Source: Candidatus Eiseniibacteriota bacterium (GTDB lineage: Bacteria; Eisenbacteria; RBG-16-71-46; CAIMUX01; WJJG01). From it: a DNA stretch of 64,000 bases. How positions within the stretch are numbered: the first letter of the stretch is position 1; every line of letters begins with the position of its first letter. The notes below the pieces were generated by a model that was not told where the DNA came from, made no database searches, and worked only from the letters and a program-made list of their open reading frames with translations. Of this stretch, positions 6,556 to 24,368 are shown piece after piece. Location of the stretch: assembly GCA_023129715.1 (NCBI GenBank), contig JAGMBO010000056.1, positions 1 through 64,000 of the forward strand. The letters are read 5' to 3'. The translations under genes and the position numbers were made by a program.

Positions 6556-8472
6556 TCAGCGCAAGTATCCAAGAGGACGCAGACGCTCGAGCGCCTCGGG
6601 GTCGGTCACCACGGCGGCCGGCTCGAGGTGTGCGCGCGAAAGGGCGGCGAGCTGACCGTCCAGGTAGCCGCGCAGCCAGGCAACGGTGTCGGGCAGGTCG
6701 GCAGCCAAGTTGGCCTGCTCCCGAGGATCCTCGCGCAGGTTGTACAAGCGCCAATCGGGCTCGTTCAGCGGGCCGCGCCTGATCAGGCGCCACTCGCCGA
6801 GCCGCAGCGCGTAGAGGTGCGGGGGGAGCTCGGAGAGCACCGGCAGCGGCTCGGCCGGTGGATCCTCTCCCACCAGCTCGGGGATCACCCGGCCCTGATG
6901 ATCGTCGGGCGCCTCGAAGCCGAGGCGGGCAAAGAGGGTCCGCACGAGATCGAGCATCGCCACCGGCCGGGCGATCTCCCGGCACGGGTGCACGCCGCCG
7001 GGGGGCCGGTAGGCCATCGCACAGCCGGTGACTTCCTCATAGATCGAATAGGTATGCCGCCACCCCTGATGATCAAAGAACTCTTCGCCATGATCCGAGA
7101 GGAAGAGGATGTGAGCCCGCTCGAGCAGGCCGCGTGCCCGCAGCGCATCGAGCAGCTCACCGATCAGCGTATCGACGCGACGGATCTCACCGTCGTAGTT
7201 GGCGATCATCCCGGCGAGGGCGTCGGGATCCAGCACCGGGAGATCTGCAACGCATTCCCAGTCGGCGCATCCCTCTCCCTCGGCATAGTCGAGGAAGTAG
7301 GGTGTCTCCTCAGGTCCCGGCGGCGCGCCCGGCGCCACCGCCATCCGATCTTCGGCCGCCGGCCGATAGGGATGGTGGGGTTCCATGTAGTGGAGATACG
7401 CGAAACGCGGCCCCGATCCGCTGCCGTCCAGCCAGCGCAGAAAGCTCGCGTTGATCTCCTCGCCGTAGCTCCTCTTCCAGTCGGCGCGCACACGCTCCCG
7501 CGACAGCCGCCGCATGACCCGCTCGATCAATGTGCGCCCATCGCGCCCCCACCAGGGCGCCCAGCGGGGATAGAAGGTCGCGAAGCCTTGATCGAAGCCA
7601 TGCCCCCCGTCCACTGCCGGATTGTCGATGAAGGCGGCCGTGTCGTAGCCGTAGCTGCGCAGGTGCTCGGCGAGGGTAATCGCATCCTGCGGCAAATGGA
7701 GGTTGAGGCCGTAGACGCCGTGGGAGGTCGGGTAGAGCCCGCTGAAGAGCGTGGCGACCGAGGGCACAGTCCAGTTGCTCGGCGTGTAGGCAGCCGGGAA
7801 GACGGTGCTTTGCTCGAAGAGGCGATCGATCTCCGGGCTCGTCGGACGGTCATAGCCGTAGAACGAGAGATGATCCCGCCGGAGCGTGTCGACCAAGATG
7901 ATGAAGACATCGGGCCGCTCGAGCCTGGCCGCGTCCTCGCGGACGGGTCCCCGCTCACGCGGGAACATACCGGCGCCGATCCAGATCCCGTTGGCGATCA
8001 CCAGCAAGAACCCCAGCAACATCCCGGCCGTCGCGCGGCCTCCGCGAGCCCAGGCGGACGTCAGGCGCACGCGGCGCGCGATCAGCGCCCGGCCGGCAAG
8101 GTGGATCGTCGCGTAAAGGCCGAGCAGGGCGGGAACGATGACGGCGATCTTGCCCGCAATGGTGGAAAAGGAAGGCACATAGGGCGAATGGGCCAGCCAG
8201 TAGGGCAGCATGATCGAGTACTCGACAAACACGATGCCGGAGAGTGCGATCCAGGGGAAGGTGCCGTCGGAGATCTTCCAGAAGAGCAGGCGCATCAGCA
8301 GCGTTCCTGCTAGGGTCAGCAGCAGATGGAGATTGAGCCCGTAGAGCAGATCGAGGAAGTCGGGCAGCGGCCGGCTTCCAAGGAAGCTCTCGACGAGGCT
8401 CGCAACCGCGGCGGCCAGAGCCGCCACGAACAGGCCGGCGCCCCACGCGCCCCATGCCCGCCGTCTGTTCAT
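6556..8472 (-). CDS. Membrane-anchored sulfatase / phosphotransferase-fold protein
   Basis: This 638-residue protein has an N-terminal membrane region of about five or six helices (residues 10-185) and a C-terminal alkaline phosphatase-superfamily domain. The metal site is visible in DVFIILVDTLRRDHLSFYGY and in LFLSDHGEEF. The nucleophile region is NWTVPSVATLFSGLYPTSHG, where Thr or Ser replaces the CxPSR of type I sulfatases, so it is probably a phosphotransferase or phosphodiesterase rather than a formylglycine sulfatase. It ends RLRPLGYLR, like the paralogue at 17587-19677. It is convergent with the SpoIIE-type phosphatase gene. Confidence 0.8.
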   Translation of the reverse strand: MNRRRAWGAWGAGLFVAALAAAVASLVESFLGSRPLPDFLDLLYGLNLHLLLTLAGTLLMRLLFWKISDGTFPWIALSGIVFVEYSIMLPYWLAHSPYVPSFSTIAGKIAVIVPALLGLYATIHLAGRALIARRVRLTSAWARGGRATAGMLLGFLLVIANGIWIGAGMFPRERGPVREDAARLERPDVFIILVDTLRRDHLSFYGYDRPTSPEIDRLFEQSTVFPAAYTPSNWTVPSVATLFSGLYPTSHGVYGLNLHLPQDAITLAEHLRSYGYDTAAFIDNPAVDGGHGFDQGFATFYPRWAPWWGRDGRTLIERVMRRLSRERVRADWKRSYGEEINASFLRWLDGSGSGPRFAYLHYMEPHHPYRPAAEDRMAVAPGAPPGPEETPYFLDYAEGEGCADWECVADLPVLDPDALAGMIANYDGEIRRVDTLIGELLDALRARGLLERAHILFLSDHGEEFFDHQGWRHTYSIYEEVTGCAMAYRPPGGVHPCREIARPVAMLDLVRTLFARLGFEAPDDHQGRVIPELVGEDPPAEPLPVLSELPPHLYALRLGEWRLIRRGPLNEPDWRLYNLREDPREQANLAADLPDTVAWLRGYLDGQLAALSRAHLEPAAVVTDPEALERLRPLGYLR

Positions 8473-8655
8473 CGATCCCTCCGGTGGCTCCCCGGGCCGA
8501 CATCGCACACCTGAGCCCGGCATTCTACCGACCTTCCGCCCCGCTGGCAAATGCTCGCGGAGGAGGTTGACGCCGGGCGGCCGTGGCGACAGAGTGGACC
8601 GTCGCCCGGCGCACACGTCCCTGCGCCCGTGGGGGCAGCAGAGGCGAGGCATCGA

Positions 8656-16115: not shown

Positions 16116-17576
16116 CTATGCCTGCGACCCTCGCGGCGCTTCCCCTCGCGGCCCTTCCCGTCGCGGCGCTTCCAGACCCAGCTTCTTCATCCGCCGCCAC
16201 AGCGTCGTCGGGTGAATCCCCAGTTCCGCCGCCGCCCTCCGCCGGTTTCCCCCATGACGTTCCAGCGTCTCGATGATCGCCGCCGCCTCGGCGCGCGCCA
16301 GAGCATTGCCGGCCGCACGCTCTGTCGGAACGGCACCGTGCGTGTCTTTCTCCAATCCTTCCGGCGTGGGGAGCGCCGCCCGGGAGGGCCCGGCAGGCTC
16401 GTCCCTATCGCCCCCGCGGCCCCGGACAGCCACGATCAACTCATCAGGCAGATGCTCCTTCGTGACCCAGCGCCCGTGACAGAGGATCATGGCGTGTTCG
16501 ATGACATTCTCCAGCTCGCGGATATTGCCCGGGTAGGAATGGCGCATCAGCAGCTCGAGCGCATCGTCGGCGACTCCCTCAATGCTCTTCCCCATGCGCG
16601 CGTTCATGCGCGCAATGAAGTGATCGATGAGCAGCGGGATGTCCTCACGGCGGCGCGCCAGGGGCGGCAGGGTCAGCCGGACGACATTGATCCGATAGTA
16701 GAGATCGTCGCGGAACTCGCCCGCCGCGACCGCCTTAGCCAGGTCGCGATTCGTCGACGCGATGATGCGCACATCGGCCTTCACCGGCTCGGTGGCGCCG
16801 AGCGGCTCGTATTCCCGCTCCTGGAGGACACGCAGCAGCTTGACCTGCAGCGCTCTCGGTAGCTCCCCGATCTCATCGAGCAGAATCGTCCCTCCCTCGG
16901 CCAGCGCGAAGCGTCCCGGCTTGTCCCGTTTCGCATCGGTGAAGGCGCCGCGCCGATAGCCGAAGAGCTCCGACTCGAGCAAGGTCGCCGGCAACGCGCC
17001 GCAGTTGACGACGACGTACTTCTGCTTCCCCCGGCCGCTCAGGTCGTGGATCGCGCGGGCAAAGAGCTCCTTGCCCGATCCGCTCGGCCCCTCGATGAGC
17101 ACCGTGCTCTCACTCGCCGCGACATCGGGCAGGATGCGGAAGATGCGTTGGATCTCACGACTCTTGCTGATGATCTCGCCCAGCCGATAGCTGCCGCGGA
17201 TCTCCTCGCGCAGGGTCTCGATCGCCGAGAGGTCACGGAAGGTCTCGACGCCGCCGGTGATCACGCCCTGATCGTTGCGCAGAACCGCCGTACTGATGCT
17301 GACCGGAATCCGCTCACCATCCCCGTCGATGATCGTCGCCCGATGGTCGATCAGCGGTTCACCGGTCGCGATCGTCTGGCGCAGGGCGCACGCCGTCTGG
17401 CAGATATCCGCACGGAAGACATCGAAGCACTTCTGGCCCACCGCCTGCTCGCGCGAGACGCCGGTGATCTGCTCGGCGGCCCGGTTGAAGGAGGTGATGT
17501 TCCAGTCCGGGTCGACGGTGAAGACACCATCCGTGATGCTGTCGAGAATGATCTCCGTGTGAGGACGGCTCGCCAT
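16116..17576 (-). CDS. Sigma-54-dependent activator with PAS domain (ORP-cluster regulator)
   Basis: The 486-residue protein has an N-terminal PAS domain (about 8-115) with three cysteines in the stretch CFDVFRADICQTACAL that could sense redox state or hold a cofactor. The central AAA+ domain (about 140-370) shows Walker A GPSGSGKE, the sigma-54 contact loop GAFTDA (consensus GAFTGA) and Walker B ILLDEIGE. A Fis-type helix-turn-helix (GGNRRRAAAELGIHPTTLW) ends the protein. It should activate the nearby sigma-54 promoter. The ATG at 17576 follows GGGAG; an ATG at 17597 would overlap the previous gene. The tail is coded by three 15-bp repeats. Confidence 0.9.
   Translation of the reverse strand: MASRPHTEIILDSITDGVFTVDPDWNITSFNRAAEQITGVSREQAVGQKCFDVFRADICQTACALRQTIATGEPLIDHRATIIDGDGERIPVSISTAVLRNDQGVITGGVETFRDLSAIETLREEIRGSYRLGEIISKSREIQRIFRILPDVAASESTVLIEGPSGSGKELFARAIHDLSGRGKQKYVVVNCGALPATLLESELFGYRRGAFTDAKRDKPGRFALAEGGTILLDEIGELPRALQVKLLRVLQEREYEPLGATEPVKADVRIIASTNRDLAKAVAAGEFRDDLYYRINVVRLTLPPLARRREDIPLLIDHFIARMNARMGKSIEGVADDALELLMRHSYPGNIRELENVIEHAMILCHGRWVTKEHLPDELIVAVRGRGGDRDEPAGPSRAALPTPEGLEKDTHGAVPTERAAGNALARAEAAAIIETLERHGGNRRRAAAELGIHPTTLWRRMKKLGLEAPRREGPRGEAPRGSQA
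16131..16175. repeat. 15-bp tandem repeat, three copies, in the 3' end of the regulator gene
   Basis: Units TCGCGGCGCTTCCCC, TCGCGGCCCTTCCCG and TCGCGGCGCTTCCAG are adjacent and in frame. They encode the arginine/glycine-rich tail of the sigma-54 activator and end a few codons from its stop. Confidence 0.8.
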
Positions 17577-17586
17577 CGCGGCTCCC

Positions 17587-19677
17587 TCAGCGGACATAGC
17601 CCAGACCGCGCAGCCGCTCCCGCGTCGCCTCGTCGATGGTCACATCGACCGCTTGCCGGGCGCCCTCGCGGACAGCAGCGCGGAACTCCTCGAGTTCCTC
17701 GTGGGCGGCTTCGGCGCGGGCCGGCTGCTCGCCGGCGAGATCCCGCTGTTCGCCTGGATCACTGGCCAGGTCGAAAAGCATCAAGGACGTTTCCCCGCCC
17801 CGCCTACTGAGAATCACCTTCTGCGGACCTCGTTGCAAGGCGTAGGCGTAGTGTCCGCCATGATCGACTTCACTGTAGAGCGGGCGTGGCGGTTCGCGCA
17901 TCTCGGCACCGGTCAGAATCGGGATCAGGCTCGCGCCATCCAGCGCTGAAGGCGCCGAAATGTCGCAGATCTCGAGGATCGTCGGGACAAGGTCGATGTG
18001 ACGGACGATGTGGGAAATAGTGCGGCCGCCATGGCCCTGCAGACCGGGGACCTGCGGGCAACTCATCATCAGAGGAACATGGAGCAACTCGTTGTAGAGC
18101 GAGTGCCCATGCCCCCAGCCACCGCGTTCACAGAACTCCTCACCATGATCGGCGGTGAGCACGATCAGCGTCTCCTTGGTGAGTTCCCGCCGGTCGAGCT
18201 CGTTGAAGAGCGCCCCCAGCCAACGGTCGGCATGGAAGATCTCGCCGTCATAGAGGGCGAGCATGTTGGCCAGGCTGTCGGCTGAGATCTCCGGGCCTCG
18301 CTCGAAAGGCAGGAACCCGTGATAGGCCGGGAAGTAGCTGACCCGGCCCAACCGCGCCAGCCGTGGGGTGAGGAATCGCCCGTCATCGGGAGGCGGCGGA
18401 TCATAGGGAACGTGGGGTTCCATCAGGTGAAGGTAGGCGAAGAAGGGGCGCTGCGGGTTGGCGTCCCCTGCGCCGGCTTCCCCCGCCCCGGCCGCCCCCG
18501 CAAAGACCTCCTCGTCCAGCCAGTCGAGGAATGCCCGGGTCAGTCCGTCGGCACGCAAGCCTCCCTCCGGCGCTCCACCGCCAATAAGGGCACGCTCGAT
18601 CGTCTCGAGCAGGCGGAAAAGCCCCTTGGCGACCTCGCTCCATTCGGTCAGTCGATGGAGCAAGTGGCCCATCATCAGTTGGACGAGCCTCGGCGGGTTG
18701 CTCGCGTAGAAGTGATCGACGCCGCGCCCGAAACCGAACATCGGAGTGATAAAGCTATTGGCGGTGAAGAGACCGGTCCGGTAACCGGCGCCGCGCATCG
18801 TCTCGGCGAGCAGCGGGGCCGACACGGGTACCCCGCTCGCCATCAGATTGACTCCGTGCGCAGAAGGGTAGAGACCGGTCAAGATCGAGGCGGTCGACGG
18901 CTTCGTCCACGAGGTCTGGGCATAGGCCCGCTCGAAGAGGATCCCCGCGCCAGCGAAGGCATCGATCCACGGACTCGTCTCCCGCGCATAGCCGTGGATC
19001 GAGAGGTGATCGTAGCGCACGGCATCGATCAGGATGATCAGGACGTTCGGTTTCCCCGTTGCGTCACCGGCCGCCCGATCCGACCCACTGGGCACCGGAA
19101 GATAGGAAACGAGCGCGAGGATCAGGGCCACACCGGTGCCGAGTGCCCACCCCGCCCAGCGGCAACGGGGCGTTGCGCCATCGCCTCGGTCGCCACTCCG
19201 CCGGGGCGCGCGCCCGCGCGCGACGGCCCGCGCGACAGAGTAGACGCACACGCCGAGAAGCACGGCCCCCACGAGGATGCCGCCCGTATAGATCAACGAC
19301 GCCCGCGCCATCGCCTCGGGGAGATAGTAGAGATTGACATAGCCGGCCACGAGCAGGAAGCCGAAGGCGGCGACGGGAACCGCGACGGTCAGTGAGCGCG
19401 ACGGTGCCCGTCGCCTGAGCAGGAGCATCGCCGCGAGCAACAGGAAGCCGAGCAGGCACCCGGCGATACCATAGAGCAGGGCCGCCTCGAAGAGGTGGGC
19501 TCGCTGAATCGCCGAACCCGACCTGCCGACCTGAAAGAGGACCTCGAGCAGCCCCGCCAATCCTCCGACGCAAAGTCCGGCGCCGGGGGCGGTCATCCAG
19601 CCCGCGGGTCTCATAGGTTGCCTCGGGTCCGGATGGAAGTCGTCCTGCCGATCACGTCCGCCCGAACCATTGTGCAT
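17587..19677 (-). CDS. Membrane-anchored sulfatase / phosphotransferase-fold protein (possible lipid head-group enzyme)
   Basis: This 696-residue protein has about five membrane helices (residues 28-195) and an alkaline phosphatase-superfamily domain. NVLIILIDAVRYDHLSIHGY and VLTADHGEEF supply metal ligands; the nucleophile region is SWTKPSTASILTGLYPSAHG with Thr/Ser and no formylglycine Cys. It ends RLRGLGYVR, like the paralogue at 6556-8472. Its ATG directly follows the stop codon of the PAP2 gene (TAGATG), so the two are probably translated together. With the ceramide genes upstream it may transfer a phospho-head group to a sphingolipid, as inference from context only. Confidence 0.8.
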   Translation of the reverse strand: MHNGSGGRDRQDDFHPDPRQPMRPAGWMTAPGAGLCVGGLAGLLEVLFQVGRSGSAIQRAHLFEAALLYGIAGCLLGFLLLAAMLLLRRRAPSRSLTVAVPVAAFGFLLVAGYVNLYYLPEAMARASLIYTGGILVGAVLLGVCVYSVARAVARGRAPRRSGDRGDGATPRCRWAGWALGTGVALILALVSYLPVPSGSDRAAGDATGKPNVLIILIDAVRYDHLSIHGYARETSPWIDAFAGAGILFERAYAQTSWTKPSTASILTGLYPSAHGVNLMASGVPVSAPLLAETMRGAGYRTGLFTANSFITPMFGFGRGVDHFYASNPPRLVQLMMGHLLHRLTEWSEVAKGLFRLLETIERALIGGGAPEGGLRADGLTRAFLDWLDEEVFAGAAGAGEAGAGDANPQRPFFAYLHLMEPHVPYDPPPPDDGRFLTPRLARLGRVSYFPAYHGFLPFERGPEISADSLANMLALYDGEIFHADRWLGALFNELDRRELTKETLIVLTADHGEEFCERGGWGHGHSLYNELLHVPLMMSCPQVPGLQGHGGRTISHIVRHIDLVPTILEICDISAPSALDGASLIPILTGAEMREPPRPLYSEVDHGGHYAYALQRGPQKVILSRRGGETSLMLFDLASDPGEQRDLAGEQPARAEAAHEELEEFRAAVREGARQAVDVTIDEATRERLRGLGYVR

Positions 19678-20802
19678 CTATGCGGTCCTCGGTCTCAGGC
19701 GGGCCGCTCGTTCGATCCAGCCATGGATCCGTGGCCCGAGCAGTCCGGTGGTGATGCCAACCACAAGACCCGCCAGCGCGTCGATCGCGTAGTGGAACCC
19801 CCCATAGACCGTCCCGATCGTGATGCCCCCGGCGATCAAGAGCACGGCCCACGAGAACCGCCGCAGATACCGGCGGCAGACCAGCCAGGCCGCCACCGAG
19901 GCCGCCACGTGAGACGAAGGAAACGCTGTCCCGACCGAGGAGGCCTGCGTCAGCAGTCGATGGGTCAGGGATTGGAAGACCCCTCCTTCACCAGTCGGCA
20001 CGAGCGGCCCGAAATGATGGAAGGGTCCCTGCACGGGGAAGAAGGTGAAGATCAAGTAACAGGAGAGAAAGGTGAGCATGATCGTGCTGATGAAGACCTT
20101 GAGCGGCTCATACCTGCGCGAGAAATAGAGGGTGAGAGCGATCACCGCGAAGACCAAGGTGTAGGAGAGATAGGCCACGTGCAAGAGCTCCGAGAGAACC
20201 GCCCACGGCAGGATGGCATGAAACACTTGACTTGGCTGGCAGCTGAACAGCAGGGCTTCCTGTTGGATGATCAGATCGTCGAAGTAATTCTGCGTCGTGA
20301 TCCGATTGAGATGCTGCACCCCCTGGTACAGTAATGGAAGGCTCGCAAGAGGATAGGTGAGGCGGAAAAAGTGCAGCAGCGGCGGGCCACTGCGCCGCGC
20401 CAAGGCCAACAGAGCAACAGCGAGCAGATAGCCGAAGTGGATGGCGACGTAGTCCTCTTTGGTACGCCAACCATCGGCAGAGAAGAGAACCAGCACACCC
20501 GTGATCGCGAGATAGGCCAGCACGATCAAATCGGCGGGGATGTATCCGCGATCGGCCCGGGCACCCGGGCGCGCGGGCGCCGGCAGACGTGCCGGCCGGG
20601 GACCACCGGTGGAGGCCTGCCCGGGCCGGGATGAGCGGCGCCCGTCGGCGTCGCCGCCTGCGGGAGTCCCGGGCGTCGAGACTCCGGGAAGCGTCGTCTC
20701 CTCGATCGGTGCCGCGATCTCCCCCTCCGCAACCGTCGTCATTGACGGCCAGGACTTCTCCACCCCTTCGTCGGTTCCCGTGACGCGCGTCTTGGAACTC
20801 AC
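19678..20802 (-). CDS. PAP2-superfamily membrane phosphotransferase (inositol-phosphoceramide synthase-like)
   Basis: The 374-residue protein has a disordered Pro/Gly-rich N-terminus (about 1-90), then about six helices and PAP2 motifs TAFPSSHVAASVAAWL and GTVYGGFHYAIDALAG, with the catalytic histidines present. Relatives include AUR1/IPC synthase-like enzymes and lipid phosphatases. The GTG start at 20802 overlaps the stop of the upstream gene (GTGA) and has GGAGGG ahead of it; the longer frame from 20826 overlaps too far. Its place behind three ceramide genes suggests it makes or trims the sphingolipid head group. The substrate is not shown by the sequence. Confidence 0.85.
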   Translation of the reverse strand: MSSKTRVTGTDEGVEKSWPSMTTVAEGEIAAPIEETTLPGVSTPGTPAGGDADGRRSSRPGQASTGGPRPARLPAPARPGARADRGYIPADLIVLAYLAITGVLVLFSADGWRTKEDYVAIHFGYLLAVALLALARRSGPPLLHFFRLTYPLASLPLLYQGVQHLNRITTQNYFDDLIIQQEALLFSCQPSQVFHAILPWAVLSELLHVAYLSYTLVFAVIALTLYFSRRYEPLKVFISTIMLTFLSCYLIFTFFPVQGPFHHFGPLVPTGEGGVFQSLTHRLLTQASSVGTAFPSSHVAASVAAWLVCRRYLRRFSWAVLLIAGGITIGTVYGGFHYAIDALAGLVVGITTGLLGPRIHGWIERAARLRPRTA

Positions 20803-21779
20803 AGCCAACCCTCCTGCCGGTACCACTCTAGCGTCTCGCGCATCCCGTCGGCTACACCAACCCGCGGCTCGAAGCCGACTCCCCGGAGCTTATCCACGCT
20901 GCAGATCCAATAGGGTTGCAGGATATCCTCGACCTTATCACGATTGATGACCGGCTGGCGCCCGGTCAGCTTGCCGACCAGCTCGCCCCACCATCCGGCA
21001 AGCCGGATCGCCGCCGACGGGATCCGCACGCGACGCAGTGGGCGGCCGAAGTAGTCGCCGAGGAGCTCTCCCACCGACTCCCACGAGTAGAAGCCCCCGT
21101 CACTAGCGTGGAAGATCCCCGCGGCCTCCCGCTCGGCGAGCAGGAGACACGCGGCGGCCAGATCGCGGGCATGGATGATGCTGACCAGACTGCCGCGCGG
21201 GGCGGGCAGCGGCAACCAGCCACGCCGCGCCCATGTCATCAGCTCCAGCAGGGCCACATCCCGCGGACCATAGATGGCCGGCGGGCGGACGATCACCAGG
21301 CGGCGGCCCGGCCTGCTCTGGTCCAGCAGCCAGCGTTCCGCGGCCAACTTGCTCTCCCCATAGGGCGTGCGGGGTGCCGGCGGGTCCTCCTCCGTGCGGG
21401 GCCGGTCGGCGGAGGGCGCCGGACCGCTGGCGGCGAGGCTGCTGCAGAAGAGAAAGAGTTCGAATTGGTCCTGCTCCGCCGCAATTCGGTAGAGCTGAAT
21501 GGTGCCCTCGGTGTTGACCTGAAAGTAGCCCTCCCGCGTGGGGACCCGGGTCACGCCACCGAAGTGGAAGACCCAGGAGACATCGCGCACGAGTTCCCGT
21601 AAGGAATCGGGGTCGCGCAGGTCGGCGGGAACGAGATCGATTCCGGTTGCCGGCAGCCAGCGCCGGTTGCTGACCGGACGCACCGGGATGCGCACCTGGT
21701 AGCCCGCGGCCAGGAGCGCCTCCATGACGGAGGATCCCGCGAATCCCGTAGCTCCGGTGACCAGAACGAGGCGGCTCAT
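20799..21779 (-). CDS. NAD-dependent epimerase/dehydratase, likely ceramide reductase (CerR-like)
   Basis: The 326-residue protein is an extended short-chain dehydrogenase: VLVTGATGFAGSSV (NAD binding), VFHFGGVTRVP, and the catalytic YxxxK in TPYGESKLAAERWL. In Caulobacter the third enzyme of bacterial ceramide synthesis is a reductase of this superfamily that reduces the 3-oxo group of the lipid. Here it follows serine palmitoyltransferase and a ceramide synthase candidate, which supports that role. No standard ribosome binding site is close to the ATG, but GGAGGAG lies further upstream. Confidence 0.75.
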   Translation of the reverse strand: MSRLVLVTGATGFAGSSVMEALLAAGYQVRIPVRPVSNRRWLPATGIDLVPADLRDPDSLRELVRDVSWVFHFGGVTRVPTREGYFQVNTEGTIQLYRIAAEQDQFELFLFCSSLAASGPAPSADRPRTEEDPPAPRTPYGESKLAAERWLLDQSRPGRRLVIVRPPAIYGPRDVALLELMTWARRGWLPLPAPRGSLVSIIHARDLAAACLLLAEREAAGIFHASDGGFYSWESVGELLGDYFGRPLRRVRIPSAAIRLAGWWGELVGKLTGRQPVINRDKVEDILQPYWICSVDKLRGVGFEPRVGVADGMRETLEWYRQEGWL

Positions 21780-21838
21780 CGTGCGTGTCCGTTCAACTCC
21801 TCCGCTTCCCTGCCCGGGCGGGAAGGAGCGCCGTGTAC

Positions 21839-23014
21839 CTAGACCGCCGCGGCGAGCGGCCGCTCGTAGATGCGATAGGTCTTGTAGACGTGGGCCCCCA
21901 TGTTGACCAGGGCCTGCCGCATGGCGTGGTTGTCTTCCAGGATCCAGGAGAACTCTCCGCCGCGGATCCCATGCTCTGCAACTGCCTGAAACAGCCGCAA
22001 GTATAGTAACTGATCGAGCCCCTTGCCTTGCAGCTCGGGCACGATGCCCAACGCGGGGATCCTGAGCATGTCGATCTTGCGGGCATGCCAGAGAATCTTG
22101 ATCAGTCCGAACGGAAACAGCCGGCCATTGGCGTGAATGAGCGCCATGTTCGCATCGGGCAACCCCAACGCGAACCCGACCGGCTCCTCTCCCCGCTCGA
22201 GAATGATCATGTACTGTGGTTTGACAATCGGCTTCATCTCCTTGGCGAAGTGCGTGATCTCCGCCTCGGTCATCGGAACGAAACCCCAGTTCTTCTCCCA
22301 CGCGCGGTTGTAGACCTCGCGCACGCGGGCGACATCTTCCTCGTAGTGTTTCATGTCGAGCGGACGGGCGGTCACCCCTCGCCGGGCGGCGATCTTCTCT
22401 GCCGCGCGCACCATCCGTTCGGGAGTCCCCCCCACAATCAAGAAATAGGCAAGCAGGTCCTTGGCCTTGCGGAGGCCGTAGCCCTCCAGCAGTTCGACGT
22501 ATCCGGGCGGATTGTGGGTCATCATGATGCGCGGCGGAGAATCGAACCCATCGACGAGCAGGCCCCACTCCTCGTTGCTCGAGAACGAAGCCGGCCCACG
22601 CAGGATCGTCAGGCCGCGTTCCCGGGCCCAGCGCCCAACTTCCGCGAAGAGCGCCGCCACGATCTCCGCGCCCCTCGCGGGCGCCTCCCCGGCTCCGAGA
22701 ATGTCGAAGAAACCGAAGAAGCAGACCTTCTCGTCGTGCACCTCGTTGTGCAGGCGGTTCTCGATCGCCGCGATCCGTCCGACGATTTCATCGCCTTTGT
22801 AGGCAAGGTAGTACTCGACCTCGGCATGCTCGAGAAAGGGATGCCGGGTCAACATCTTCTTCATATCCCCGATCAGCGGAGGCACCCAGTTGGGATCCCC
22901 GGCATAGACCTTCCAGGGAAAGGTGACGAAGCGATGGAGTTGACGGCGGCCGGAAACCCGCTCGATGCGTAGCCGCCCACCCAGAAAAGACGTGCTCTCG
23001 GACTGAACCATCAT
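21839..23014 (-). CDS. GNAT-fold acyltransferase, likely bacterial ceramide synthase (bCerS-like)
   Basis: The 391-residue protein has the features of a family often annotated as GNAT or dATP pyrophosphohydrolase: FPWKVYAGDPNWVPPL, FLEHAEVEYYLAYKGDEIVGRIAAIENR, FFGFFDIL, RGPASFSSNEEWGLLVDGFD, and a second GNAT lobe with IVPELQGKGLDQLLYLRLF. The Caulobacter ceramide synthase that acylates 3-oxosphinganine belongs to this superfamily. The location next to serine palmitoyltransferase and a reductase gives the rest of the argument. It has no membrane segment. I am confident of the family and less so of the exact substrate. Confidence 0.75.
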   Translation of the reverse strand: MMVQSESTSFLGGRLRIERVSGRRQLHRFVTFPWKVYAGDPNWVPPLIGDMKKMLTRHPFLEHAEVEYYLAYKGDEIVGRIAAIENRLHNEVHDEKVCFFGFFDILGAGEAPARGAEIVAALFAEVGRWARERGLTILRGPASFSSNEEWGLLVDGFDSPPRIMMTHNPPGYVELLEGYGLRKAKDLLAYFLIVGGTPERMVRAAEKIAARRGVTARPLDMKHYEEDVARVREVYNRAWEKNWGFVPMTEAEITHFAKEMKPIVKPQYMIILERGEEPVGFALGLPDANMALIHANGRLFPFGLIKILWHARKIDMLRIPALGIVPELQGKGLDQLLYLRLFQAVAEHGIRGGEFSWILEDNHAMRQALVNMGAHVYKTYRIYERPLAAAV

Positions 23015-23104
23015 TACGAAAACGTCCGTGTTCGCCCACTAAGAACCAGCCGGCCCCGCCCCGATGAACCCGGCTCGCTGCACCCGCCGGAAAGCGCGGC
23101 CGGC

Positions 23105-23172
23105 GCAGACCTCGAATTAGATCAGCCCGACTTCCCTCGCAGACCTCGAACTAGATCAGCCCGACTTTCTTG
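23105..23172. repeat. 34-bp tandem duplication at the 3' end of the serine palmitoyltransferase gene
   Basis: Copies at 23105-23138 and 23139-23172 begin GCAGACCTCGAA and differ at about four positions. The right copy carries the last codons and stop of the gene (VGLI then TAG); the left copy is outside the gene and keeps a stop in the same place (TAA). Confidence 0.85.
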
Positions 23173-24368
23173 CCGGCCTTCTTGTAGATTTCGAGCGCAC
23201 GCGCGAGCAGATCCTCATCATGCGTCGCCATGACGCTGTTGCGGATGCGGCAGGTGTTCTCTGGCACCGCCGGCGGGATCACCGGATTGGCGAAAACCCC
23301 TGCCTTGAGGAGTTCCTTCCAGAAATAGAAGGTATCCATCATCTGGCCGACGATGACTGGAATGACCGGGCTGTCACAGGGTCCGGTGTTGAAGCCGAGG
23401 GATTGGATGCCCTCTTTCAAGAACTGCGCGTTGCGCCATAGCCGCTCGCGGCGTTCGGGCTCGCTCTTCAGAATATCGAGGCAAGCCTGGACGGTCGCCA
23501 CCGCATAGGGTGGCAGCGCGGCTGAGAAGATCATCGCGCGGCCGTGGTGCTTGACATACTCGACTACCTTGGCCTCGCCGGCGACGAACCCACCGATGGA
23601 AGCGAAGGACTTGCTAAATGTCCCCATGATCAAGTCGACATCATCGAGGACTCCGAAGTGCTCCGCCGCACCGGCGCCCGTCTTGCCCATAACGCCCACC
23701 GAGTGGGCCTCATCGACCATCAGCTTTGCATCGTACTCCTTGGACAACCTGACAATCTCAGGCAGGTTGCTGAGATCGCCTTCCATACTGAAAACGCCGT
23801 CGACGACGATCAGCTTGCCGCCGGGGCGTTGGGCGGCCTTCTTCAAGATCCGCTCGAGATCGGGCATGTCGTTGTGCCGGTAGCGGAGGGTCTCCCCCAT
23901 CGCGAGGCGGCACCCATCGACGATACTGGCGTGGTCGAGCTTGTCGATGATGACCGTGTCGTTGCGCCCGATCAGGGTGGAGATCGCCGCCAGATTGACC
24001 TGGAACCCGGTCGAGAAGACGAGCGCGGTCTCCTTGCCGACTAAGTCGGCGAGATCGATCTCGAGCTTCTCGTGAAGATCCAGTGTGCCATTGAGGAGGC
24101 GACTGCCGGTGCAGCCGGTGCCGTATCGGCGGGCAACTTCCTCGGCGCGGCTGATGACGCGCGGATCGTGGGTCAGGCCGAGGTAGTTGTTGGAGCCGAG
24201 CATGATCTTCTGCTCGCCAGCGATGGTAACAACCGTGCCTTCAGAGCCCTCGATCGGGATGAAGAAGGGATAGAGCCCCTTGGCGGCGACCTCTTCGGCG
24301 CGGGTATCGGCATAGCACTTGGCAAAGAGGTCCGCGCGGCCGGCACGGGCCTCAGTGGCCCCGGTCAT
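23151..24368 (-). CDS. spt: Serine palmitoyltransferase-type alpha-oxoamine synthase
   Basis: This 405-residue PLP enzyme condenses serine with an acyl-CoA or acyl-ACP to 3-oxosphinganine, the first step of sphingolipid synthesis. It shows MLGSNNYLGLTHDPRV, TGCTGSRLLNGTLDLHEKLE, the DEAHSVGVMGKTGAG segment, and the PLP lysine in GTFSKSFASIGGF. Other family members (KBL, BioF, ALAS) share these motifs; the call as SPT rests on the close match around STGFQVNL and on the two ceramide genes that follow. The start at 24368 is chosen because a promoter lies at 24444-24472. The gene is first in a six-gene leftward run. Confidence 0.85.
   Translation of the reverse strand: MTGATEARAGRADLFAKCYADTRAEEVAAKGLYPFFIPIEGSEGTVVTIAGEQKIMLGSNNYLGLTHDPRVISRAEEVARRYGTGCTGSRLLNGTLDLHEKLEIDLADLVGKETALVFSTGFQVNLAAISTLIGRNDTVIIDKLDHASIVDGCRLAMGETLRYRHNDMPDLERILKKAAQRPGGKLIVVDGVFSMEGDLSNLPEIVRLSKEYDAKLMVDEAHSVGVMGKTGAGAAEHFGVLDDVDLIMGTFSKSFASIGGFVAGEAKVVEYVKHHGRAMIFSAALPPYAVATVQACLDILKSEPERRERLWRNAQFLKEGIQSLGFNTGPCDSPVIPVIVGQMMDTFYFWKELLKAGVFANPVIPPAVPENTCRIRNSVMATHDEDLLARALEIYKKAGKKVGLI

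Follow-up and report, generated by a model that had tools for sequence, protein, structure and literature searches.

A conserved ceramide operon of Candidatus Eiseniibacteriota with a predicted inositol-phosphoceramide-synthase-like PAP2 enzyme

Ceramide synthesis is now predicted from genomes in dozens of bacterial phyla, and the enzymes adding the head group are known for few organisms only. In Caulobacter crescentus, where the sphingolipid cluster spans CC_1163-CC_1153, the N-acyltransferase gene cerS (CC_1154) lies in a separate operon and the phosphoglycerate head group is attached via a ceramide kinase and nucleotidyl/CDP-alcohol enzymes (PMC11324152). The inositol phosphoceramide (IPC) synthase known from experiments in bacteria is BT_1522 of Bacteroides thetaiotaomicron (PMC9246714, PMC8791184). 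Here, we describe a putative phosphosphingolipid operon in a stretch of 64,000 nucleotides (nt) from Candidatus Eiseniibacteriota (contig JAGMBO010000056.1, positions 1 to 64,000; called the window in the following), which is part of contig C139 of a draft genome (G000; 4.83 Mb, 96% complete) and which was compared with relatives of the same order, Candidatus Eisenbacteria, numbered G001 onwards. On the minus strand from 24368 to 17587 five open frames follow each other, encoding a serine palmitoyltransferase (SPT, Spt), a GNAT protein, an extended short-chain dehydrogenase/reductase (SDR), a membrane protein of the PAP2_3 family and a membrane protein with a sulfatase-fold domain (PF00884). 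An earlier note on this DNA had placed five genes of these kinds here, and all frames are present and match the families it had given. We consider it quite probable that the operon makes a ceramide and then adds a phospho-head group to it in the membrane. For the Spt, GNAT and SDR steps we rely on homology to enzymes known from experiments and on synteny, and for the PAP2 step on motifs, on the fold and on the linkage kept across genomes; of the whole mechanism, the head group is least certain. In the proposed pathway, Spt would condense serine and an acyl thioester to 3-ketosphinganine, which would be N-acylated by the GNAT protein and then reduced at its 3-keto group by the SDR to yield dihydroceramide. 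The PAP2_3 enzyme would take a phospho-alcohol from a glycerophospholipid via a phospho-histidine intermediate, using His306 (PSSH), His345 and Asp349 (HYxxD) as catalytic set, and would pass it to the 1-OH of ceramide under release of diacylglycerol. The likely donor would be phosphatidylinositol (PI), giving inositol phosphoceramide, followed by phosphatidylglycerol (PG).

Gene order is one line of evidence for this operon. GNAT homologs are present in 25 of 39 related genomes, and most relatives with enough contig keep SPT-GNAT-SDR intact; the PAP2 gene follows these three in the Eisenbacteria families f1-f4 and f11 and is missing in family f7. Of 80 named loci, 19 have SPT-GNAT-SDR-PAP2 in this order; nearly all are from Gemmatimonadota (Gemmatimonadota bins, an HRbin33 bin and Candidatus Benthicola, placed under Gemmatimonadota in the tree), and one is from an Acidobacteria bin. 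The GNAT gene is present in 63/121 sampled Gemmatimonadota, and on the GNAT tree the presence of PAP2 is strongly clustered, requiring 4 changes versus 20 in shuffles. The layout is not due to chance, since the first four genes keep their order across phyla. As this order holds for Eisenbacteria, for Gemmatimonadota and for one genome of Acidobacteria, the predicted ceramide phosphotransferase belongs to the core of the operon. Whether the PAP2 and the sulfatase-fold genes stay with spt in relatives had been set beforehand as a test: the PAP2 gene does and the sulfatase-fold gene does not, the gene after PAP2 being mostly unrelated or on the opposite strand in the Gemmatimonadota loci. A self-contained ceramide operon with its own Aur1-like transferase is a variant of the known bacterial ceramide clusters. 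In the part of the literature covered by our search we found no description of this four-gene operon, and no paper joining Gemmatimonadetes with SPT and ceramide or a bacterial IPC synthase with PAP2.

The first committed enzyme, Spt (23151..24368, minus strand, 405 aa), belongs to the alpha-oxoamine synthase family and is predicted to use serine as substrate. Its best NCBIfam model is serine palmitoyltransferase (NF047600, 518 bits; BioF and Kbl 389 bits), and the stacking/catalytic histidine H146 and the pyridoxal phosphate lysine K253 are conserved. The score does not reach the curated cut-off of 640 bits, yet it is the top one among alpha-oxoamine synthase models. Staying below this cut-off would fit an enzyme using cysteate, alanine or glycine and forming a sulfonolipid or a 1-deoxyceramide, which is unable to take a 1-O-phospho head group; 1-deoxy and sulfono ceramides do occur in anoxic waters (PMC11334938). 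We give this alternative a small chance, as the best matches in the PDB are SPT structures (8guh/3a2b, 422 bits) with cysteate acyltransferase (28eh) at 246 bits, and as the conserved neighbouring phosphotransferase needs a 1-OH group.

For the GNAT protein (21839..23014, minus strand, 391 aa) no curated family matched and a sequence search of the PDB returned nothing significant. It is 38.6% identical over 98% of its length to a Roseomonas gene found by tblastn against plasmids, which sits between LptF/LptG genes and a nucleotidyltransferase gene in a cluster also holding an acyl carrier protein, an SPT-type aminotransferase, a CDP-alcohol transferase and a metallophosphoesterase. This arrangement matches that of Caulobacter CC_1163-CC_1153 with the GNAT gene at the cerS position; the comparison partner is the Roseomonas gene at this position and not Caulobacter CerS itself. 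Because of this identity and of the syntenic place of the Roseomonas gene in a Caulobacter-type cluster, the protein is assigned as a bacterial ceramide synthase (bCerS type), a predicted ortholog of Caulobacter-type cerS by synteny; moreover, it is encoded immediately after SPT in dozens of genomes. A ceramide-like operon with 4-nt overlaps, encoding an SPT-type enzyme, a GNAT protein, an SDR and a condensation-domain protein, was also observed on a mobilizable plasmid of Streptomyces sp. (L286, 3748-8274).

The SDR (20799..21779, minus strand, 326 aa; PF01370, NAD-epimerase/SDR) contains the NAD-binding motif TGxxGxxG and the YxxxK motif as YGESK, adjoins SPT-GNAT across many phyla and is 36% identical to the SDR of an SPT-GNAT-SDR operon in Rubrobacter. 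Its N-terminus (MSRLVLVTGATG) is without a hydrophobic segment; Caulobacter CerR is periplasmic. As an extended SDR linked to spt and cerS it is classified as a putative ceramide reductase of the CerR type. Homology and synteny thus support the assignment of serine palmitoyltransferase, GNAT-type ceramide synthase and ceramide reductase that had been proposed for the first three genes.

The fourth gene encodes the membrane PAP2_3 protein (19678..20802, longest frame from 20826, minus strand; PF14378, 67.8 bits), for which an IPC-synthase-like function had been suggested. In 37 operon-type or SPT-adjacent PAP2 proteins compared, the C2 motif PSxH is present in all and the C3 motif HYxxD in 36/37, while the SR of C3 typical for phosphatases occurs in none and a C1 KxxxxxxRP-like string in one only. 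An AlphaFold2 model built from 29 sequences (mean pLDDT 91.9) has only two PDB matches with E < 0.001, namely an IPC synthase with ceramide (9vj4, 1.8e-5) and Aur1-Kei1 (9ivc, 6.2e-5); LpxE, PgpB and the sphingomyelin-synthase-related protein SMSr rank under these two. A sequence search of the PDB returned nothing, and no significant match was found in a library of viral structures. Profile-profile comparison with BT_1522-type proteins gave a match at 99% (E 9e-18, 214 columns), and the NCBIfam model of phosphoinositol dihydroceramide synthase (NF052609) matches 9/9 eisenbacterial members weakly. The fold, the profile match and the weak NF052609 score place the protein among IPC-synthase-like enzymes in a subfamily of its own, and we assign it on the basis of model and motifs as a predicted lipid phosphotransferase of the Aur1/BT_1522 type at superfamily level and not as a PAP2 lipid phosphatase. 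The latter reading, a hydrolase dephosphorylating a sphingoid-base or ceramide phosphate or acting in phospholipid recycling with no head group added, draws on a superfamily consisting mostly of phosphatases and on weak matches of 8/9 members to the undecaprenyl-diphosphate phosphatase model. It appears improbable, given the phosphatase motif counts above, the transferases as best fold matches and the lack of a visible ceramide kinase in the operon; both other PAP2 proteins of the host genome, used as controls, carry C1 and the C3 arginine, one of them with the full SR motif (SRxxxxxHxxxD). Absent phosphatase motifs, IPC synthases as nearest folds and conserved gene order are therefore in line with the function suggested earlier, and conserved linkage, motifs and fold likewise support, for the PAP2 enzyme, the prediction of a phosphosphingolipid with a head group added at the membrane.

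The identity of the head group is predicted from the inositol genes of the host only. The host genome encodes a myo-inositol-phosphate synthase (MIPS), a CDP-alcohol transferase that is closest to archaetidylinositol- and PI-phosphate synthases (146/121 bits, below the cut-offs of 180/170), a PgsA-like enzyme and a fused cytidylyltransferase/CDP-alcohol transferase resembling CDP-inositol enzymes (L183, 5724-7202, host contig C113). The gene of this fused enzyme adjoins one of the inositol-phosphatase family, as in di-inositol-phosphate pathways of thermophiles. A phosphatidylserine decarboxylase was found in 0/17 Eisenbacteria searched, i.e., the host and relatives, so that Eisenbacteria may be without phosphatidylethanolamine (PE) and PE is an unlikely donor. 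Phosphoethanolamine from PE was accordingly set aside as head group here; most operon-bearing Gemmatimonadota do have the decarboxylase. The inositol-phosphate synthase together with the PI-phosphate-synthase-like enzyme and the missing decarboxylase make phosphoinositol the most likely head group, with a somewhat better than even chance, and phosphoglycerol the next, with a clearly lower one.

Several observations weigh against phosphoinositol. Two operon-bearing genomes, G005 (100% complete) and G028 (98%), are without inositol-phosphate synthase, and NF052609, still the best model for the host PAP2, scores 16.5 bits against a cut-off of 480. In three further genomes (G004, G007, G010) a second protein, full-length and of the BT_1522 type, is encoded in addition to the operon PAP2, suggesting that the two enzymes may differ in head group. 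Over 58 genomes PAP2 in the operon is associated with MIPS (26/31 with versus 3/27 without, Fisher 3e-8), but this association comprises two supported independent contrasts only (sign test p = 1, uninformative), and MIPS is near-universal in Gemmatimonadota anyway (106/121). The presence of MIPS was rejected as proof of an inositol head group for this frequency and for the too few independent contrasts in the tree. Alternatively, the PAP2 enzyme might be a synthase of ceramide phosphoglycerol or of another non-inositol lipid, which would use PG as donor and share the work with IPC synthases of the BT_1522 type. The three genomes holding both proteins, the two without inositol-phosphate synthase, the PgsA-like enzyme and the missing PE route all fit this alternative, whereas IPC synthases are the closest folds in the PDB, and a majority of the operon genomes encode inositol-phosphate synthase and, among Gemmatimonadota and in the host, are without a BT_1522-type enzyme; on balance we regard it as rather unlikely. 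We tentatively raise a broader idea, which is possible though not favoured, namely that the operon PAP2 founds a class of its own among bacterial synthases of ceramide head groups, apart from BT_1522 and hard-wired in the four-gene operon of Gemmatimonadota and Eisenbacteria, that may use PG rather than PI as donor and would make a phosphosphingolipid new to these phyla.

Inositol-related genes elsewhere were also inspected. Myxococcus xanthus was reported to make ceramide phosphoinositol (PMC9246714). A Myxococcus PAP2 protein near SPT was considered as functional anchor and rejected, as a BT_1522-type protein in a cluster of MIPS, IPC synthase and PI-phosphate synthase genes explains this lipid better. 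In Myxococcus dinghuensis (L272, 6934-10580) overlapping genes encode MIPS, a BT_1522-type IPC synthase and a PI-phosphate-synthase-like protein; this trio could represent the genes by which myxobacteria make ceramide phosphoinositol. At the MIPS loci of the host, G002, G004 and G007 (L180, L184, L185, L186) a gene with a start resembling that of an LpxL/PatA-type acyltransferase was seen nearby by eye in 4/4 cases, which suggests an acylated inositol lipid.

The fifth gene (17587..19677, minus strand; PF00884, 147 bits) encodes an accessory membrane protein with about five predicted N-terminal helices and an extracytoplasmic domain of the alkaline-phosphatase/sulfatase fold. In sequence, arylsulfatases and phosphonate monoester hydrolases come nearest to its catalytic domain, which keeps the metal ligands D218, D510, H511 and H523. 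Thr258 (TKPST) occupies the sulfatase cysteine column (C/S-x-P-x-R), and because it replaces the cysteine that is converted to formylglycine the protein is not a classical sulfatase. The score of 29 bits with the phosphoethanolamine-transferase model does not reach the cut-off of 500, while topology and threonine agree with LtaS/EptA; a fair guess from these features is a phosphotransferase or phosphodiesterase with a threonine nucleophile. A structure model from a two-row alignment (pLDDT 37) was not used. The earlier note had counted this gene as part of the system, which the comparison does not bear out as a rule. It directly follows PAP2 only in the host and in G002 of the same family (ortholog 58% identical) and at no other locus examined, the ortholog of G001 from the same family (51%) is placed apart from SPT on a different contig, and 17 matches in the host genome reveal a large paralogous family, one member of which, also a membrane sulfatase-fold protein with threonine for cysteine, lies in the window itself (6556-8652, minus strand, 34% identical to the operon copy). 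The gene is a local addition, an accessory of two close relatives. We give an even chance to the reading that its product is a general envelope phosphotransferase or phosphodiesterase which lies downstream by chance and has no relation to sphingolipids. The paralogs, the displaced G001 ortholog and the lack of such a gene behind PAP2 at all remaining loci favour this; its start codon, however, abuts the PAP2 stop, with the same adjacency in G002, and an SPT-GNAT-SDR operon followed by an LTA-synthase-family protein (24% identity) occurs on a plasmid of the actinobacterium Rubrobacter radiotolerans (L188, 6728-12320). The latter case implies that such enzymes may be recruited repeatedly; two or three cases establish no role. 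If linked to the pathway, the protein might act on the head group on the outside of the membrane, by decorating or by hydrolysing it.

The earlier description of overlapping or touching junctions holds for the last two of the four only. The SDR and PAP2 genes overlap by 4 nt (GTGA) with the probable PAP2 start GTG 20802, which is preceded by a good Shine-Dalgarno sequence (GGAGGG), or by 28 nt with the longest frame from 20826, and the PAP2 stop abuts the start of the sulfatase-fold gene exactly (TAG/ATG). SPT and GNAT are separated by 136 nt and GNAT and SDR by 59 nt. The 136 nt include a tandem copy of about 34 nt of the SPT 3' end (gtcgggctgatctagttcgaggtctgcg; 23100-23170, minus strand). 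A consensus scan, which is weak evidence, found no terminator-like sites in the intergenic gaps of the operon; ahead of SPT it found a sigma-70-like site (10/12, TTGACA-N17-TAACAT, 24472-24444, minus strand). The site is followed, ahead of the SPT ATG, by a hairpin of 10 bp that has a T-rich tail and could be a leader or an attenuator; site and hairpin lie within 24472-24397. Downstream, the frame of a PAS/sigma-54 activator (16116..17597, minus strand, start ATG 17597 or 17576; PF00158, PAS and Fis helix-turn-helix domains) overlaps the end of the sulfatase-fold gene. This activator, which is not kept at the loci of relatives, is possibly co-transcribed and may regulate the operon or mark mere read-through.

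The conserved four-gene operon would allow a single-transcript test of the phosphosphingolipid made by Eisenbacteria and by Gemmatimonadota, which are common soil bacteria, and it would offer a compact set of genes with which the synthesis of bacterial phosphosphingolipids could be rebuilt, as well as, in its PAP2 protein, a bacterial relative of the antifungal target Aur1. With the ceramide/ceramide phosphoglycerate cluster of Caulobacter crescentus the operon shares Spt, an N-acyltransferase like CerS and a reductase like CerR; unlike there, all three genes of the ceramide core share one operon here with that of a PAP2 phosphotransferase, and no dedicated acyl-carrier-protein or acyl-ACP-synthetase gene is seen in it. 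The sulfatase-fold protein resembles the LTA synthase/EptA class in its five N-terminal membrane helices, its extracytoplasmic domain, the threonine at the nucleophile position and the metal ligands, and differs from it in a catalytic domain nearest to arylsulfatases and phosphonate monoester hydrolases and in the low model score. BT_1522 and the operon PAP2 have in common the fold class, a detectable profile homology and the proposed chemistry; however, the operon PAP2 forms a separate, distant subfamily and lies with ceramide genes, while BT_1522 lies with inositol-lipid genes in the BT_1522-1526 operon and not with spt. From Aur1 (9ivc) and the IPC synthase 9vj4 the operon PAP2 differs by an identity of at most 17% and by the lack of an identified Kei1-like partner, and yet these two are its nearest solved folds and share the PAP2-type catalytic set of two histidines and an aspartate.

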